A program made the position numbers and the translations under genes. The notes under the pieces were generated by a model, which saw only the letters and a program-made list of their open reading frames with translations, ran no database searches and was not told the DNA's origin. Shown here piece after piece: positions 22,837-29,843 of a stretch of DNA of 64,000 bases (position 1 is its first letter; every line of letters starts with the position of its first letter). Origin of the DNA: Candidatus Desulforudis audaxviator MP104C (GTDB taxonomy: Bacteria; Bacillota; Desulfotomaculia; Desulfotomaculales; Desulforudaceae); assembly GCF_000018425.1 (NCBI RefSeq), contig NC_010424.1:1178001-1242000 (forward strand). Direction: 5' to 3'.

Positions 22837-25200
22837 ATGCTGTTGCGCAAACTGCTCCGGGACATCGCTACCTTCAAGGGACAGTTCTTCGCTATTGCGC
22901 TGTTGGTGATGCTGGGCATCGCCATGTTCTCCTCCATGTACCTGGCGCTGGTCAACCTGCGGGACTCCGCGGAAAACAGCTTCCACCGGCTGCGCTTGGC
23001 CGACTACACCGTGCACTTCACCGCCGCCCCCGCCGGCCTGACCGAGGCAGCCCGCGCCATCGAGGGTGTGCGCCTGGTCAGCGGGCGGTACGTGGACGAC
23101 GTCTCCCTGGACCTCCCGGGCGCCCCCGACAAAATGCGGGCCCGGATCATCTCCCTGCCCGGCCCCGGCGAGGACCCGGTGAACGACCTGCACTTGGTCC
23201 GCGGCCGCCTTCTGGACCCCGACGACCGTCGCGGCGTCCTCATTTCCAGCGACTTCGCCACGCATCACCAACTGGAACCGGGCGACCCGGTGCACGTCAT
23301 CGTTGGGGGCCTGCGCCAGGAACTGGTGATCCGGGGCCTAATCTTGAGCCCGGAGTACCTTTTCGCCGCCCCCGACCTGAACCAGTTCTTTTCGTCGATC
23401 CATTCGTTCGCGATTATGTTCGTGACCCGCGACACGGCGGCTGAAGTCCTGGGCAGCGGCGGCCAGATCAACGAACTTGCCGTGACCACCGATCCGGAAG
23501 CGGACGCGGACGCGGTCGAACAGGCCCTGCGTGAACTGACTTCCGGTTACGGCTACCGGACTCTGGTCGCGCGCGAAGACCAGTTCAGCTACCGTATGCT
23601 TCAGAGCGAGATGGACCAGCTTTCAACCTGGTCGGTGATGCTGCCCGTCGTGTTTCTGGGTGCCGCCGTGATGGTCATTCTGGTGCTCCTGGCGCGGATC
23701 GTCCGGCAGCAGCGCTCCCATATCGGGCTCCTCCGGGCGCTGGGATACACCCGGGCGCACATCATGGGCTACTACCTGGGATTCGCCCTGGCCGTCGGGG
23801 GCACTGGTTCGGTGGCCGGGACGCTCCTCGGCTACTGGATGTCGGTCGGCTTGACCAATCAGTACGCCTTTTACTTCAACATCCCCTACCTGGTGAGCGG
23901 GTTCCACTGGGACGTGCAACTGTTTGCCGTGACCCTGGGCGTCGGCACCTGCCTCGTCGCCTCCTTTTTCTCGGCCCGGGCGGCCGCTTCCATCCACCCG
24001 GTGGAGGCCATGCGCGCCCCCGCTCCCCCGCCGGGCCGCCGCTTCTGGGGCGAACGCTGGTTCAGTTTCATGGACCGGCTGCCAGCCCTCTGGAAGTTTC
24101 CGATTCGGAACATCACCCGCAATCCCTGGCGGTTCAACTTCTCGGCCACCGGCGTGGGCGTGGCGTTGGGCTTGCTGGTGCTATCCGGTTCCTTCTATGA
24201 CCTGTTTGACGACATGCTCAACCGCTACTTCGGCGATATGGTGGGCTATGAGGCCCGCATCAACTTCACCGGGCCGACCGGTTGGGACGCTGTGACCGAG
24301 GTGGCCCTCTGGCCCGAGGTGCGCGAGGCCCAAGCCCTGGTGGAGGGAGCGGTGCGCTACCGCAACGGGCGCCTGCAGTACGAAGGCCCCCTCACCGGCC
24401 TGCCGGAGGACGGTCGCCTTTTCCAGTTGCGGGATGAGCAGAACAACCTGGTCGCCCCGTCCCGCGGCGGGATACTCCTGTCTTCGAACTTGATGCAAAT
24501 ACTGGACCTGAAGGAAGGGGACACCGTCACCCTGGAACCAATGGTCGCCGGGCTGCCCAGCCGTGAAGTCACGGTCGCCGGCACGGTCGAGACAATGCTG
24601 GGCGTCGGCGGCTTTCTGCCGCTAGAGGAGGCCCGTTTTGTGCTAGGACCGGGCACGCCTATCTCCGCGGCGCTGGTGACCACTAATCCCGGCACCAGCC
24701 TGGAAACGCTCCGCGAACGTGCCCGGGACCGCCCGTTCGTCAGCGGAGTGCAAAGCATCGCCGATGCGCGCGAGGAGGCGTTGAAGAATCTGGACCTGAT
24801 GTACGCCTTCCTGGCCGTGGCGCTGCTTTTCAGCATGCTTCTGGCGGGCGCCATCGTGTACAGCATGTCCTCCATCACCACGTTGGAACGCACGCGTGAA
24901 CTGGTGAGTTTCCGCATGCAGGGCATGAGCCGGAAGGGTACCGGCGTGCTGATCGCCGCCGAGGGTCTGCTGCCCGCTGTCCCCGGCCTGGTCCTGGGCG
25001 TCGCCGTAGGCTACGCCTGGGCCGCCTGGTTTGCCGCCGCCTTTTCCAGCGACCTGATGACCATCCGGTTGGTTATCTACCCGGCCACGATCGTGTTTTC
25101 CGTGCTGGCCGTCGTCGCGGCGGTGGCGCTGGCCCAGTGCCCGCCGATCCGGAGCACAAACCGCATCAATCTGGCCGAAGCCTCGAAACACCGGGAATAG
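22837..25200 (+). CDS. FtsX-like ABC exporter permease, large form
   Basis: Membrane protein of 787 residues with the duplicated MacB/FtsX layout of large permeases: one N-terminal helix (about 13-34), an extracytoplasmic domain (35-255), three helices with the FtsX motif RSHIGLLRALGYTRAHIMGYYLGFALA near 290-315, a further helix and the coupling PVEAMRAPAPPP, then a second unit with helix at about 435-450, an external domain (455-660) and a last three-helix FtsX block (ERTRELVSFRMQGMSRKGTGVLIAAEGLL). It fits a tripartite exporter with the ATPase before it and the adaptor after it. The substrate is unknown. Confidence 0.9.
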   Translation: MLLRKLLRDIATFKGQFFAIALLVMLGIAMFSSMYLALVNLRDSAENSFHRLRLADYTVHFTAAPAGLTEAARAIEGVRLVSGRYVDDVSLDLPGAPDKMRARIISLPGPGEDPVNDLHLVRGRLLDPDDRRGVLISSDFATHHQLEPGDPVHVIVGGLRQELVIRGLILSPEYLFAAPDLNQFFSSIHSFAIMFVTRDTAAEVLGSGGQINELAVTTDPEADADAVEQALRELTSGYGYRTLVAREDQFSYRMLQSEMDQLSTWSVMLPVVFLGAAVMVILVLLARIVRQQRSHIGLLRALGYTRAHIMGYYLGFALAVGGTGSVAGTLLGYWMSVGLTNQYAFYFNIPYLVSGFHWDVQLFAVTLGVGTCLVASFFSARAAASIHPVEAMRAPAPPPGRRFWGERWFSFMDRLPALWKFPIRNITRNPWRFNFSATGVGVALGLLVLSGSFYDLFDDMLNRYFGDMVGYEARINFTGPTGWDAVTEVALWPEVREAQALVEGAVRYRNGRLQYEGPLTGLPEDGRLFQLRDEQNNLVAPSRGGILLSSNLMQILDLKEGDTVTLEPMVAGLPSREVTVAGTVETMLGVGGFLPLEEARFVLGPGTPISAALVTTNPGTSLETLRERARDRPFVSGVQSIADAREEALKNLDLMYAFLAVALLFSMLLAGAIVYSMSSITTLERTRELVSFRMQGMSRKGTGVLIAAEGLLPAVPGLVLGVAVGYAWAAWFAAAFSSDLMTIRLVIYPATIVFSVLAVVAAVALAQCPPIRSTNRINLAEASKHRE

Positions 25201-25214
25201 GGGGTTATCTTATA

Positions 25215-26402
25215 ATGCTGTCCAGGAAAATCAAAGTCGGACTGGGAATCGTCATTGTGGGACTGTTGGCGGGCGGCGGCTATCTGGTCTCCGCGCTCCA
25301 ACCGGTGGCGGTCCGAACGGCTGCGGCGGTCGCGACCGATCTGACGGTTACGGTCAGGGGCACCGGCGACGTGGAGGCCGCCGCTCCCGACCGCGTTTAC
25401 GCCGAGGCGGGCGGGAAGCTCGTGGCCGTGCCCGTGGCGGCGGGGGACCGGGTGGCGCCGGGCGACCTGCTGGCCGTCTTCGACACCGCCGCCCTGCAGG
25501 ACCGGTTGGCGTTGGCTGCGGCCGAAAGGCGGACTCTAGAGGCGCAGCAGGCTGAGCTGGCCGAACAGAACCGGGTGGCCCTGGAGCTTGCCGCCCTAGA
25601 ATTGGAACAGGCCGGGACCAACCTGGAGCGGGCCGAGTTCCTGCACGCCCAGCAGGTGATTCCCGACGCCGAACTGGAGGCGGCACGCCGGGCGCGGGAG
25701 GCGGCCGCGCTGAACCTGGCGCGGGCCGAAGCCGGAAAACTGGCCCTGGACACCGTGGCCGCCCGCCTGGACGCCGCCCGCACGGCCGAGCGGCAGGCGG
25801 AGCGGCAGCTACGCCAGGCCCGGGTGACTGCCGCCTCCGCGGGCGTGATACTGGAGCGGATGGTTGAGCCGGGCGCGGTGGTCGCTCCGGGAGCGCCTCT
25901 CTTCGTGGTCGGCGACCCCGAAATCCTTCGGGTCGTCGCCGAAATCGAACCGCGGGACGCCGGGCTGGTCGCGGCCGGCCAGACGGTGCGCATCAGGCAT
26001 CTGGCCGGTGGGGCCCCCGTCGCTTCCGGCAGGGTCACCCGGGTGGTCCCCTCCGGTACGGTTACGGTATCGGCGCTCGGTGTGAAAGAGTCCAAGGCCC
26101 GGGTGGAAATCGAGGTCGTTGAGGGCGCCCGGGAACTGAAACCCGGCTTCCAGGTAAACGTCGAGATCATCGTCGACGAAGCCCCCGGCGAAACCGTGGT
26201 GCCCGAAACCGCCCTCTTCCGGCAGGACGGCGCCACCTTTCTCTTCGTCGTCCGGGACGGGCGCGCCGTGAAAACCGCGGTGACTCCCGGCCGGCGCGCG
26301 GCGGAGTTGACGGAGGTCACCGGGGATCTCAAAACCGGGGAATCGGTCATCGTGCACCCGGGGGCCGAAGTGAAAGACGGGGTGCGTGTGCAAGCGCGCT
26401 AG
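25215..26402 (+). CDS. HlyD/RND-type membrane-fusion adaptor
   Basis: Adaptor of 395 residues linked to the preceding ABC exporter. An N-terminal membrane anchor (about 8-25) is followed by a lipoyl-like half (VTVRGTGDVEAAAPDRVYAEAGGKLVAVPVAAGDRVAPGDLLAVFD), a long alanine-rich coiled-coil hairpin (about 95-205), the second lipoyl half (VTAASAGVILERMVEPGAVVAPGAPLFVV) and beta-barrel/membrane-proximal domains with ETALFRQDGATFLFVVRDGRAV. The ATG at 25215 has GGGGG nine bases upstream; the earlier open frame overlaps the permease gene and is rejected. In Gram-positive bacteria such adaptors pass substrate out of the membrane without an outer-membrane partner. Confidence 0.9.
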   Translation: MLSRKIKVGLGIVIVGLLAGGGYLVSALQPVAVRTAAAVATDLTVTVRGTGDVEAAAPDRVYAEAGGKLVAVPVAAGDRVAPGDLLAVFDTAALQDRLALAAAERRTLEAQQAELAEQNRVALELAALELEQAGTNLERAEFLHAQQVIPDAELEAARRAREAAALNLARAEAGKLALDTVAARLDAARTAERQAERQLRQARVTAASAGVILERMVEPGAVVAPGAPLFVVGDPEILRVVAEIEPRDAGLVAAGQTVRIRHLAGGAPVASGRVTRVVPSGTVTVSALGVKESKARVEIEVVEGARELKPGFQVNVEIIVDEAPGETVVPETALFRQDGATFLFVVRDGRAVKTAVTPGRRAAELTEVTGDLKTGESVIVHPGAEVKDGVRVQAR

Positions 26403-26406
26403 GCAC

Positions 26407-27054
26407 TCAGCCGGGTCGCCTTACATCGGAGCAGTACATTCGCACCTTTTCGGGGGCGGTTGTTCCCGGTTTGACCGCCCGCACCACAAAGCGGTCCGCG
26501 CCGTCCACCAGGTCGAGGACGCTGTAGCCGGCATCCTGAAGCATCTGTCTCAGTTCTTCCACCGTGGGCAGCAGGTCCGCGCCTACCGGACCGCCGATGT
26601 GCCGGTGCATCCGGTTCACCGCCTCCCGGCTCTCCGTGTGGCAGATCACCAAGAGGCCTCCCGGCTTGAGCACCCGGTTCAGTTCCTGCAGTGCACCCGG
26701 CTTGTCGGGAAGGTGTGGCAACACGTTGTTGCAGAAAACCGCATCGAATGTCCCCGGTTCAAAAGGCAGGGCAGCCACGTCGGCCTCAACAAACCGGACG
26801 TTCGGCCCAAACGCCTTGGCTCCGGCGCGTTGCACCATCGCGGCGGCGAAGTCTACCCCGGTGACGGTCCCCCTCTCGCCCGCCCTCTCCAGCAGGAACG
26901 GTACCAGGAGTCCGGTGCCGCAGCCCACGTCCAGCACGTGTGCGCCTTTTCGCAGACCGGACCCGGCCACGATCTCGGCCAACTTGGAAGCGGCGCCCGG
27001 CGGAACCAGGTCATCCCACCTGTCCGCCAAGTTGTTGAAGAATTCCCTTCGCAT
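26407..27054 (-). CDS. SAM-dependent methyltransferase, class I (type 11)
   Basis: Cytoplasmic methyltransferase of 215 residues. The SAM site is motif I VLDVGCGTGLLVPFLLERAG (39-58), followed by an acidic residue in VTGVDFAAAM, then VEADVAALPFEPGTFDAVFCNNVLPHL and LKPGGLLVICHTESREAVNRMH. The acceptor cannot be inferred. It begins directly after the stop of the metal-permease gene (TAG then ATG), so it is the last gene of the importer operon, an unusual companion for a ZnuABC system. Confidence 0.88.
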   Translation of the reverse strand: MRREFFNNLADRWDDLVPPGAASKLAEIVAGSGLRKGAHVLDVGCGTGLLVPFLLERAGERGTVTGVDFAAAMVQRAGAKAFGPNVRFVEADVAALPFEPGTFDAVFCNNVLPHLPDKPGALQELNRVLKPGGLLVICHTESREAVNRMHRHIGGPVGADLLPTVEELRQMLQDAGYSVLDLVDGADRFVVRAVKPGTTAPEKVRMYCSDVRRPG

Positions 27055-27876
27055 CTATGCCCCCTCCGTTTCGGTCAACTGCTTCACGCGGCGCTTCGGT
27101 GACACTGCGCTTGCAACCAGGAAGAGCAGGGTGGAAAACACAACAATGGACGCCCCGCTCGGCAGGTTGAACAGGTAGGCCAGGGCCAGTCCCACCCAGC
27201 AGGACAGCACCCCGAAGCAGGCAGCCAAAAGGAACAGGTTTCGGAGGCTGTAGGTGAGCTGGTAGGCCGCGGCCGCCGGATTGAGGATCAGGCTGAAAAT
27301 CAACAGGCCGCCGATCGGCTGCAGGGACGCGGTAACGGTGAGACCGGTGAGGAGCAGCAGACAGTAAAAGATCCAGGTGGCCGGCAGCCCCACGGCCAGG
27401 GCGATCTCCCGGTTAAAGATCACCGCCTGCACCTCCTTGAAGAAAAGGACGACCGTCCCCAGAACCAGCAGGGCCACCACGGCCAGCACCGCCAAGTGCT
27501 CCGGCCTCACCGTCAGAATACTCCCCCACATCAGCCCCAGGGCCTGGGTTTTCGGCCCGGGCATGAGTCCGAGAAAGAGAAACGATAACCCGAGCATCAA
27601 GGAAAACACGATGCCCAGCGAAGTGTCCGGGTTGAAATCCCCACGGTCGGCCAAGGGGCCGATGGCCCCCGCCGCCAGCAAGCTGAAGAGAAACGCGCCG
27701 TGCATCGGATTCAGCCCCAGAAAAACCGCGATGATCGCCCCGGCGAAAGCGGCGTGGGAGATGCACACCCCGATGAAGGAAAGATGCATGCTCACCACCA
27801 GCACGCCCACCAAAGAGCAGGCAATGCCGCCCAGCAAACCGGCTAGCAGGGCATACTGCATGAAGTCATAGGCCAA
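27055..27876 (-). CDS. Metal ABC transporter permease, ZnuB family
   Basis: Membrane subunit of an ABC-3 importer, 273 residues, eight or so helices. Family features: LGGIACSLVGVLVVSMHLSFIGVCISHAAFAG at 14-45, the DTSLGIVFSLMLGLSFLFLG block, and TASLQPIGGLLIFSLILNPAAAAYQL in the later half. TTG start at 27876 overlaps the ATPase gene by 11 bp. The metal (Zn, Mn, Fe or other) is not fixed by the permease. Confidence 0.9.
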   Translation of the reverse strand: MAYDFMQYALLAGLLGGIACSLVGVLVVSMHLSFIGVCISHAAFAGAIIAVFLGLNPMHGAFLFSLLAAGAIGPLADRGDFNPDTSLGIVFSLMLGLSFLFLGLMPGPKTQALGLMWGSILTVRPEHLAVLAVVALLVLGTVVLFFKEVQAVIFNREIALAVGLPATWIFYCLLLLTGLTVTASLQPIGGLLIFSLILNPAAAAYQLTYSLRNLFLLAACFGVLSCWVGLALAYLFNLPSGASIVVFSTLLFLVASAVSPKRRVKQLTETEGA

Positions 27877-28684
27877 AACGGTCAGTGATGCCCACCTCCA
27901 TATGCCCGTGCCCGTGGCAGCACAGCGGGCTGATCCCGTATACCTCCCGGATGTTGTCGTCGGAGAGCGCCTCCTCCGGGGGGCCGGAGGCGAAAATGGT
28001 CCCCCGCCGGAGCAGCAGCACCCGGTCGCAACGGTGAAAGGTCTCCCGCGGATCGTGGCTGACCAGCAAGGTGGTCAGCCCGCGGCGCCGGTGCACATCG
28101 GCGACCAGGTCGAGGATTTCCTGCCGGGAACGCCAATCCAGGGAGGCGGTCGGTTCGTCCAGCAGGAGCACCCGGGGCTCCTGGGCGAGCGCGCGGGCGA
28201 TGGCGGTACGCTGCTGCTCCCCGCCCGACAGGTGTCCGAAGGGCCGGTCGGCGAGGCGCGCCATGCCCACCAGCGCCAGCAACTCCTCGACCAGCGCCCG
28301 GTCAGCCCGGCCCGGGCGGCGCCAGAAACCCAGGCGCCCGTACCGCCCGATCATCACGGCCTCGCGCACGGTCACCGGCAGGCGCGGGTCGACATTGTGC
28401 CCTTGGGCGACGTAACCGACGCCGGTGCGCATCCGCCGGGCGGCGTTGCTCAACCGGAAGTCGCGCCCGCCCCGCCCGGCGCGCATGCGGCAACCCAAAA
28501 CCACGGCCTCCCCGGACAAGAGGCGGCCCAGACCGTTCACCACGGTGAGGATGGTGGTCTTCCCGGCCCCGTTCGGCCCGACGATGCCCACCATTTCGCC
28601 CGCCCCAATGTCCACAGAAACCCCGCGCAGGGCCACGTCTTCCAGGTAGGAAACGGTGACGTTACGGAGACTGATCACCGTCAA
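27866..28684 (-). CDS. Metal ABC transporter ATPase, ZnuC family
   Basis: ATPase of the ABC-3 importer, 272 residues. Walker A GPNGAGKTT, Q-loop GYVAQGHNVDP, signature [15 protein letters not shown], Walker B VLLLDEPTASLD and switch LLVSHDPRETF are intact. The C-terminus carries SPLCCHGHGHMEVG, a Cys/His cluster that could bind the metal or sense it; similar histidine tails occur in some zinc and manganese ATPases. The start is TTG at 28684, placed by AGGAGG seven bases upstream; the longer frame to 28759 crosses into the binding-protein gene. Confidence 0.9.
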   Translation of the reverse strand: MTVISLRNVTVSYLEDVALRGVSVDIGAGEMVGIVGPNGAGKTTILTVVNGLGRLLSGEAVVLGCRMRAGRGGRDFRLSNAARRMRTGVGYVAQGHNVDPRLPVTVREAVMIGRYGRLGFWRRPGRADRALVEELLALVGMARLADRPFGHLSGGEQQRTAIARALAQEPRVLLLDEPTASLDWRSRQEILDLVADVHRRRGLTTLLVSHDPRETFHRCDRVLLLRRGTIFASGPPEEALSDDNIREVYGISPLCCHGHGHMEVGITDRFGL

Positions 28685-28739: not shown

Positions 28740-29615
28740 TCACTCTGCAATGGCTCCAAGCAGGAGTTCCACGTTCCTCTCGATGGCCAGCGCCCAGGTG
28801 GCGGTATCCGGAAAACCGCCGGGGAAGTTCGACAGCGTTACGTGCGCGGCCCCGAGTTCCCGGGCGATACTCTTGCCGGCCTCGTGACCGCTCTGGAGAT
28901 TGTCCACCACCAGGGTTACTCCGGCCTGCCGGCCCAGTGCCAAGAGTTCCTCCAACTGCCGGGGGCTCGTGTCCTCGGGCCGTCCGAACGCGGCCACCAC
29001 ATCAAGGCCGGCCCACCGCAAAAACCCGGTCTGCATCTCGCTCACCAGCACCTTCACCCCGGTTGCCCCGGCTGCCTCTAACCGGCTTTTCATCGCGCTG
29101 CCGACCGCGGCCGTTTCCTCCTGCAGTGCGGCGGCGTTCTCCGCGTAGAAGCCCGCGTTGTCCGGGTCAACCTTGGCCAGTGCCGCGGCAATTTGTTCAA
29201 TGGCCTCGCTCCGGACGGGCGGCGTCATCCAGTTACCCTGAATCGCCAGAACCACCTTTTGGAGTTCTTCGTTGCGCGCCGAGCGGATCAGGTCGTCGGT
29301 GAAGAGCTCACCCTGCCAGGCGTGCACAAAGAAGATCCTCGCATTTGCGAGTACCTGCATGTCCGCGGGCTTCACGTCAAAATGACCCGGGCAGGACGCC
29401 GGCGGGATGATATTTGCCACCGTCACCTTGTCGGCACCCACCCCCTCTACGATGTCCGCGATCAGGCTGGTGGTGGTTACCACTTTGAGTAGTTCCGGAC
29501 CACCGCCGGCCGGTGCCCTTTCTTCCCCGCACCCCGTAAGCGTGAATACCGTCAGCAACACTGCCACAGCCAACAACAGCCAAACCCGCCGCCCCAATCT
29601 TTTGTTTTCCGCCAT
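28740..29615 (-). CDS. Metal-binding lipoprotein, TroA/ZnuA superfamily, atypical ligands
   Basis: Receptor of the ABC-3 importer, 291 residues; lipoprotein signal with lipobox LTGC (Cys 29). The fold is recognisable: LLKVVTTTSLIADIVEGVGADKVTV, then IPPASCPGHFDVKPADM in place of the usual PHxYEP (Cys 75, His 78). The later His ligands are not seen: the usual DPHxWLDP region reads GNWMTPPVRSEA (about 127-138) and the HxAFGYF region reads SEMQTGFLRWAG (192-203). No His-rich loop exists. It is therefore unlikely to be a standard zinc receptor and may take another metal or a metal complex. ATG at 29615 with GGAGGAGG upstream. Confidence 0.85.
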   Translation of the reverse strand: MAENKRLGRRVWLLLAVAVLLTVFTLTGCGEERAPAGGGPELLKVVTTTSLIADIVEGVGADKVTVANIIPPASCPGHFDVKPADMQVLANARIFFVHAWQGELFTDDLIRSARNEELQKVVLAIQGNWMTPPVRSEAIEQIAAALAKVDPDNAGFYAENAAALQEETAAVGSAMKSRLEAAGATGVKVLVSEMQTGFLRWAGLDVVAAFGRPEDTSPRQLEELLALGRQAGVTLVVDNLQSGHEAGKSIARELGAAHVTLSNFPGGFPDTATWALAIERNVELLLGAIAE

Positions 29616-29655
29616 TCCGCTGCCTCCTCCTTGAAAAATAGTGTTTGATAACAGA

Positions 29656-29700
29656 AAAACCACGGAGATGCTCCTGCAGGGTCCAAACCTCCGTGGTTTT
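29656..29700 (-). terminator. Intrinsic terminator/attenuator just upstream of the metal importer
   Basis: On the minus strand AAAACCACGGAG (29700-29689) and CTCCGTGGTTTT (29667-29656) form a 12-bp stem with a 21-nt loop and end in a run of five U. It ends only 41 bp before the metal-binding lipoprotein start, which leaves little room for a separate promoter. It either ends the DUF502 transcript or acts as a leader attenuator. Confidence 0.75.
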
Positions 29701-29843
29701 GGTCCATGTTTTTAGATTTGGTACCGGATACACCCTTGGACGGCTTCAGCCGCTCGCTGTTTAGAAGTATAACAGGTTTGCCGGGCGCTGTAAACGGTTT
29801 TTGGGGCGATGCCTCCCCGGCGGAACCGGGTGCGCACGGGCTG

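Follow-up and report, generated by a model that had tools for sequence, protein, structure and literature searches.

The stretch of DNA analysed here (the window, 64,000 nucleotides of Candidatus Desulforudis audaxviator MP104C, whose genome is one contig of 2,349,476 bases) carries a tight minus-strand operon, 29615-26407. Its four genes follow in the order receptor, ABC ATPase, ABC-3 permease and SAM-dependent methyltransferase, and are preceded by a promoter and a leader with two hairpins (Table 1). The ATPase and permease genes overlap, and the permease and methyltransferase genes abut. Genes for an FtsX/MacB-like permease and an HlyD-type adaptor (window 22837-26402, +) converge on the cassette from the opposite strand. 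The original prediction had described the receptor as a ZnuA-like protein lacking the usual histidine ligands, and its open reading frame, coordinates and motifs (CPGHFD, GNWMTPPV and SEMQTG) are all present in the sequence. Among the papers that we searched, none was found to describe this cassette, and a search for plasmid spread of the cassette returned no match.

Table 1. Features of the cassette and its leader, in window positions.
Feature	Position	Strand	Basis or remark
Class I SAM-dependent methyltransferase	26407..27054	-	Near-obligate receptor partner
ABC-3 permease	27055..27876	-	Profile match; pore-residue alignment
ABC ATPase	27866..28684	-	Start codon uncertain, TTG 28684 or GTG 28678; C-terminal CCHGHGH
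ZnuA/TroA-superfamily lipoprotein receptor (P0001), without His1 and His2	28740..29615	-	Profile, model, alignment
Terminator-like leader hairpin	29652..29706	-	Model R1, 43.5 bits; between promoter and receptor gene
Small upstream hairpin, same leader	29740..29753	-	Sequence, GCGGC-UGAA-GCCGU
Sigma-70-like promoter, TTTACA-16-TTATAC	29767..29794	-	Read from sequence; upstream of leader

The receptor and its metal-ligand columns

Assignment of the receptor to the TroA superfamily was confirmed. The PF01297 profile matches P0001 across the whole domain at 117 bits (cut-off 29), the AlphaFold2 model, made with 40 aligned sequences, has a pLDDT of 91.8, and the leading Foldseek matches to that model are all TroA-type proteins (YfeA, MntC, ZnuA, FpvC), with E-values down to 5.6e-17. 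In fold, lipoprotein signal, ATPase and permease the cassette resembles the Cluster A-I/TroA receptors that work with ABC-3 transporters (ZnuABC, PsaABC, MntABC, YfeABCD).

We compared the ligand columns by profile alignment of 28 subfamily members with 11 canonical proteins. The His1 column holds H in 9 of the 11 canonical proteins; P0001 has Gly77 there, and the 28 relatives have G (25) or S (3), so the altered first site originally read from CPGHFD extends to the whole subfamily. His78 adjoins this column without lying inside it, and is Gln in Hydrogenedentota. The loop that bears His2 in canonical proteins (DPHxW) is cut down to GNW, the His2 segment being deleted. For the third ligand the canonical proteins have H in 10 cases and E in 1, of manganese type, whereas P0001 has Glu193, and E or D occupies this column in 20 of 28 relatives, the other 8 having V, N, S, L or G. 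The claim that the second and third histidines are missing is thus right about the second, but the third column is not empty. A hand count had placed Ser192 in this column, which the profile alignment ruled out. Because the column is so often acidic, Glu or Asp may still serve here as a ligand, in the fashion of PsaA-type receptors.

P0001 also lacks the His-rich loop, as had been proposed. The canonical ZnuA of the same genome has one, GGHQHAECAGHAHEHDHNACP, together with PHTFEP, DPHVW, YHSAW and LDPLGG. The motifs of the receptor are conserved in its relatives, a point that the prediction had asked to be checked: C75, P76, D80, H98, P132, Q195, W201, D238, N239, L240, Q241, N263, F264, P265, G266 and W274 are invariant in 28/28, and N128 and W129 are found in 26 of 28.

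It is very improbable that the cassette is an ordinary zinc or manganese importer whose ligand set has shifted. Although the fold, the partner genes, the PF01297 match and a Glu193 like that of PsaA-type receptors would suit such an importer, P0001 reaches none of the NCBIfam zinc/manganese receptor equivalogs (AztC, MntC, EfaA, AdcA; best 52 bits versus 400), and the classified matches of the leader described below include no zinc or manganese genes. The genome, moreover, has its canonical ZnuA and a total of two ABC-3 permeases, which provides for zinc by another route.

The receptor group is a real subfamily. Of the 113 class genomes surveyed, 18 carry a receptor match at E<1e-90, the next match lying at about 1e-18, and a tree sets the subfamily apart from canonical ZnuA with support of 100/100. 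Across the phylum it occurs in 17 of 399 genomes, and it reaches other phyla too, with members in Dehalococcoidales, Armatimonadetes, Hydrogenedentota and Desulfovibrio relatives. One receptor gene (G125:C1:1381792-1382436, locus L080) is interrupted by a TAG stop and is a possible pseudogene. Since the subfamily proteins match the ZnuA profile, generic annotation would name them zinc transporters.

Transporter subunits and the methyltransferase partner

In Bacillus anthracis MntC, an Asp47-His51-Asp94 triad is essential (PMC8487065). Like MntC-type ABC-3 permeases, the cassette permease has counterparts of His51 and Asp94, and both are kept in 37/37 family permeases. The Asp47 position is V/I/A (Asp in 0/37); some canonical-looking ABC-3 permeases likewise lack this counterpart. 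Judged from these alignments, the kept pore His and Asp are better suited to a metal, free or complexed, than to an unrelated solute. An invariant permease Cys20 was considered as a soft-metal relay and ruled out, as it is also found in 12 of 14 canonical permeases. In two genomes the cassette has two adjacent ABC-3 permease genes (L101:5487-7197, -; L102:1836-3622, +), which suggests a heterodimeric permease.

The CCHGHGH tail of the ATPase, which had been offered as an argument for an unusual metal, is present, but only in Desulforudis, with CC variants in three near relatives, and is absent from the other relatives. Being confined to near relatives, it does not support that argument, and as a part of the mechanism we ruled it out because the family does not conserve it.

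The methyltransferase, by comparison, is a near-constant companion. Of the 35 loci with enough flank to be informative (L058 and L091, at contig edges, were left out), 34 have it linked to the receptor, and the sole locus without a linked gene, L102, lies on a contig with masked bases. Beside canonical ZnuA it was found in 0 of 18 loci. At the level of genomes, all 18 that are receptor-positive carry it, versus 9 of 95 others; in most of these nine it adjoins NikABCDE-type transporters, and in two a more distant ZnuA-like variant (L134, L135). Its best NCBIfam match is NF045667 (the DVU_1556 family) at 100 bits, under the 155-bit cut-off, and the closest relatives of solved structure are small-molecule methyltransferases, led by phosphoethanolamine N-methyltransferases. 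Among its conserved positions are F6, W13, D14, C108, P113, H114, H139, R143, N147 and H150.

Several islands outside the subfamily carry the same enzyme. In L126, L128, L130 and L131, from genomes without the ZnuA-like receptor, the methyltransferase family lies inside or beside NikABCDE-type operons. The more divergent ZnuA-like receptor genes (L134:8089-8943, -, with HPPEYD, QKHQ, DNF and RNFPG in its product; L135:7141-8073, +) have their own ABC-3 permease, which lacks the pore Asp94 counterpart, and a methyltransferase of this family. Genes for ArsR/SmtB-type metalloregulators adjoin methyltransferase/transporter islands (L128:8818-9171, +; L129:9162-9518, +; L134:11467-11781, +); the two that were tested exceed the NCBIfam cut-off, and some have Cys/His-rich stretches such as CCGRHH.

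A near-obligate methyltransferase could also mean that metal transport has been abandoned and that the importer carries a non-metal small molecule, for instance the methyltransferase's substrate. The loss of His1 and His2, the amide-rich invariant set of the receptor, and the additional loss of the pore Asp94 equivalent from a distant relative that shares the methyltransferase would all agree with this. We nevertheless regard it as distinctly unlikely, given the pore His and Asp retained throughout the family permeases and a leader that is common to metal genes.

The leader RNA and its predicted regulon

Between promoter and receptor gene the leader forms a hairpin, CCACGGAGGTTT...CTCCGTGG, that leads into T residues; its exact pattern is unique in the Desulforudis genome. 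Promoters similar to that of the cassette are found in L003, L004, L021 and L022. Across loci the consensus is an upstream NGRA-loop hairpin and a terminator hairpin, CCAYGRAGG...CYUYCRUGG (L126, L058, L059, L188, L190, L202-L206 and others are examples). A covariance model, R1, was built from 24 leader examples. Of 31 Firmicutes cassettes, 25 have an R1 match upstream, 19 at 30 bits or more and six between 21 and 30, and the leader is absent from the non-Firmicutes cassettes. Above 30 bits there are 38 matches in family loci; in 18 control loci none exceeds 20 bits.

Conservation and covariation make the case for this leader, since the folding energy of the whole leader is not unusual (z -0.35). 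Over 97 aligned R1 matches, 97 percent of the stem cells are paired, double changes number 83 versus 27 in shuffles, and sliding the stem destroys the covariation signal; sequence conservation in the 5' arm is partly by construction, because that arm was the search seed. The NGRA-loop upstream hairpin occurs in 24 of 72 leaders versus 2.8 expected. In Rfam, no family exceeds its gathering score for the leader, the NiCo riboswitch included. We rejected a known riboswitch upstream of the cassette on this ground; the B12 riboswitches nearby belong to neighbouring cobalt/B12 genes. R1 is like NiCo and other Rfam metal riboswitches in being a structured leader before metal genes, and differs in having no Rfam match. 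On this sequence evidence it is a candidate attenuator or riboswitch.

R1 matches occur in 77 of the 113 class genomes. Of 65 matches that lie outside the training set and have an open reading frame after them, 40 precede nickel/cobalt-type genes, versus 9 of 357 random positions, a count from which ZnuA/ABC-3 genes are omitted as control centres; the gene classes were drawn from cassette neighbourhoods, so that the class set is not wholly independent. The classes are NikA/NikB-type, DUF3842, FmdE, methyltransferases, CbiM/NikM, CooC-like, CobN, FecCD/BtuF-like, DUF4198 and hydrogenase maturation proteases. In the Desulforudis genome R1 precedes the cassette, NikBCDE-A, CobN with a FecCD-type transporter, and DUF3842. 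It also precedes a hydrogenase maturation protease gene, over its cut-off, and a DUF4198 gene that has a NikL-family gene, under its cut-off, behind it. DUF4198 proteins are NikK-like. In cyanobacteria, NikKLMQO transports nickel (PMC5904137). The NikA-type receptors of this analysis fall under the nickel equivalog cut-offs. Taken from gene content, the R1 operons form a predicted nickel/cobalt-type regulon, and its 43.5-bit R1 makes the window cassette a member. The FmdE, CobN and methyltransferase genes are not specific to nickel. Cobalt fits nearly as well, several cassettes having B12 riboswitches, CbiM or cobUTS genes in their vicinity.

Candidate substrates of the importer

The original prediction favoured something other than free zinc, either another metal or a metal complex, and the results back it: the loss of His1 and His2 runs through the subfamily, the methyltransferase is nearly constant, and the leader is shared with nickel-uptake genes, which together argue that the cassette probably imports a nickel (or cobalt) complex and not free zinc. 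Our best explanation, to which we give a probability of about one half, is that an ABC-3-type importer has been re-purposed for nickel, less likely for cobalt, the metal entering most probably bound to a small chelator. From sequence we infer the imported metal, the chelator, the substrate of the methyltransferase and the effector of the leader alike. The receptor would close around a metal-chelate, gripping it through Cys75, His98, Asp80 and an amide-rich set (N128, Q195, N239, Q241, N263), residues that alignment and conservation suggest line the cleft, and the ATPase-permease pair would take the metal in. The methyltransferase may act on the chelator, either completing its synthesis or loosening its hold on the metal once inside the cell. 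Transcription would stop at the leader hairpin when the metal is sufficient and read through it when the metal is scarce.

The acidic residue at position 193 and the pore His and Asp would suit a bare cation as well. The importer could then carry nickel or cobalt ions without a chelator, through a site rebuilt from Cys75, His98 and Glu/Asp193, and the methyltransferase would serve nickel use in a separate, housekeeping capacity. The invariance of C75 and H98, the frequency of E/D in the third column, the retained metal-pore residues, the nickel/cobalt-type regulon and the association of the methyltransferase with other importers all agree with this. However, position 193 is not acidic in 8 of 28 receptors, the change from His to Gly and the shortened loop open the cleft, and bare-cation sites do not usually have many invariant amides and aromatics. 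We therefore consider it unlikely, though less so than the loss of metal transport.

Set beside known systems, the cassette differs from ZnuABC, PsaABC, MntABC and YfeABCD in lacking His1, His2, the His-rich loop and the pore Asp47, and in having a methyltransferase in the operon and a different leader RNA. FpvC, which structurally matches the P0001 model, belongs to FpvCDEF of the Pseudomonas aeruginosa pyoverdine pathway, where the FpvDE ABC transporter works with FpvC as metal-binding receptor and FpvF as chelator-binding receptor (PMC6954188). That system differs in using two receptors, in serving iron-pyoverdine and in having no methyltransferase. NikABCDE/CntA-type nickel/metallophore importers have, in relatives, the methyltransferase family and leader RNA in common with the cassette, but their receptor family (SBP_bac_5) and transporter family are unrelated to those of the cassette.

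More broadly, and as a tentative proposal that we think somewhat unlikely to hold in full, the chelate-import reading could extend to an undescribed nickel-acquisition system of anaerobes. It would combine a TroA-fold chelate receptor, a chelator methyltransferase and an undescribed nickel-sensing leader RNA of tandem hairpins, with an intrinsic terminator as the second. In Desulfotomaculia and their relatives this RNA would govern the cassette along with Nik, NikM/CbiM, NikL-like, CobN and hydrogenase-maturation genes.

If import of a nickel or cobalt complex is the true function, the zinc label misstates the metal supply of subsurface and sulfate-reducing bacteria that rely on nickel enzymes. 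A methyltransferase as the fixed partner of a metal importer would point to a new chelator or release step, and the R1 leader RNA offers a way into an uncharted nickel/cobalt-type regulon, as well as a direct means of testing for an RNA that senses metal.
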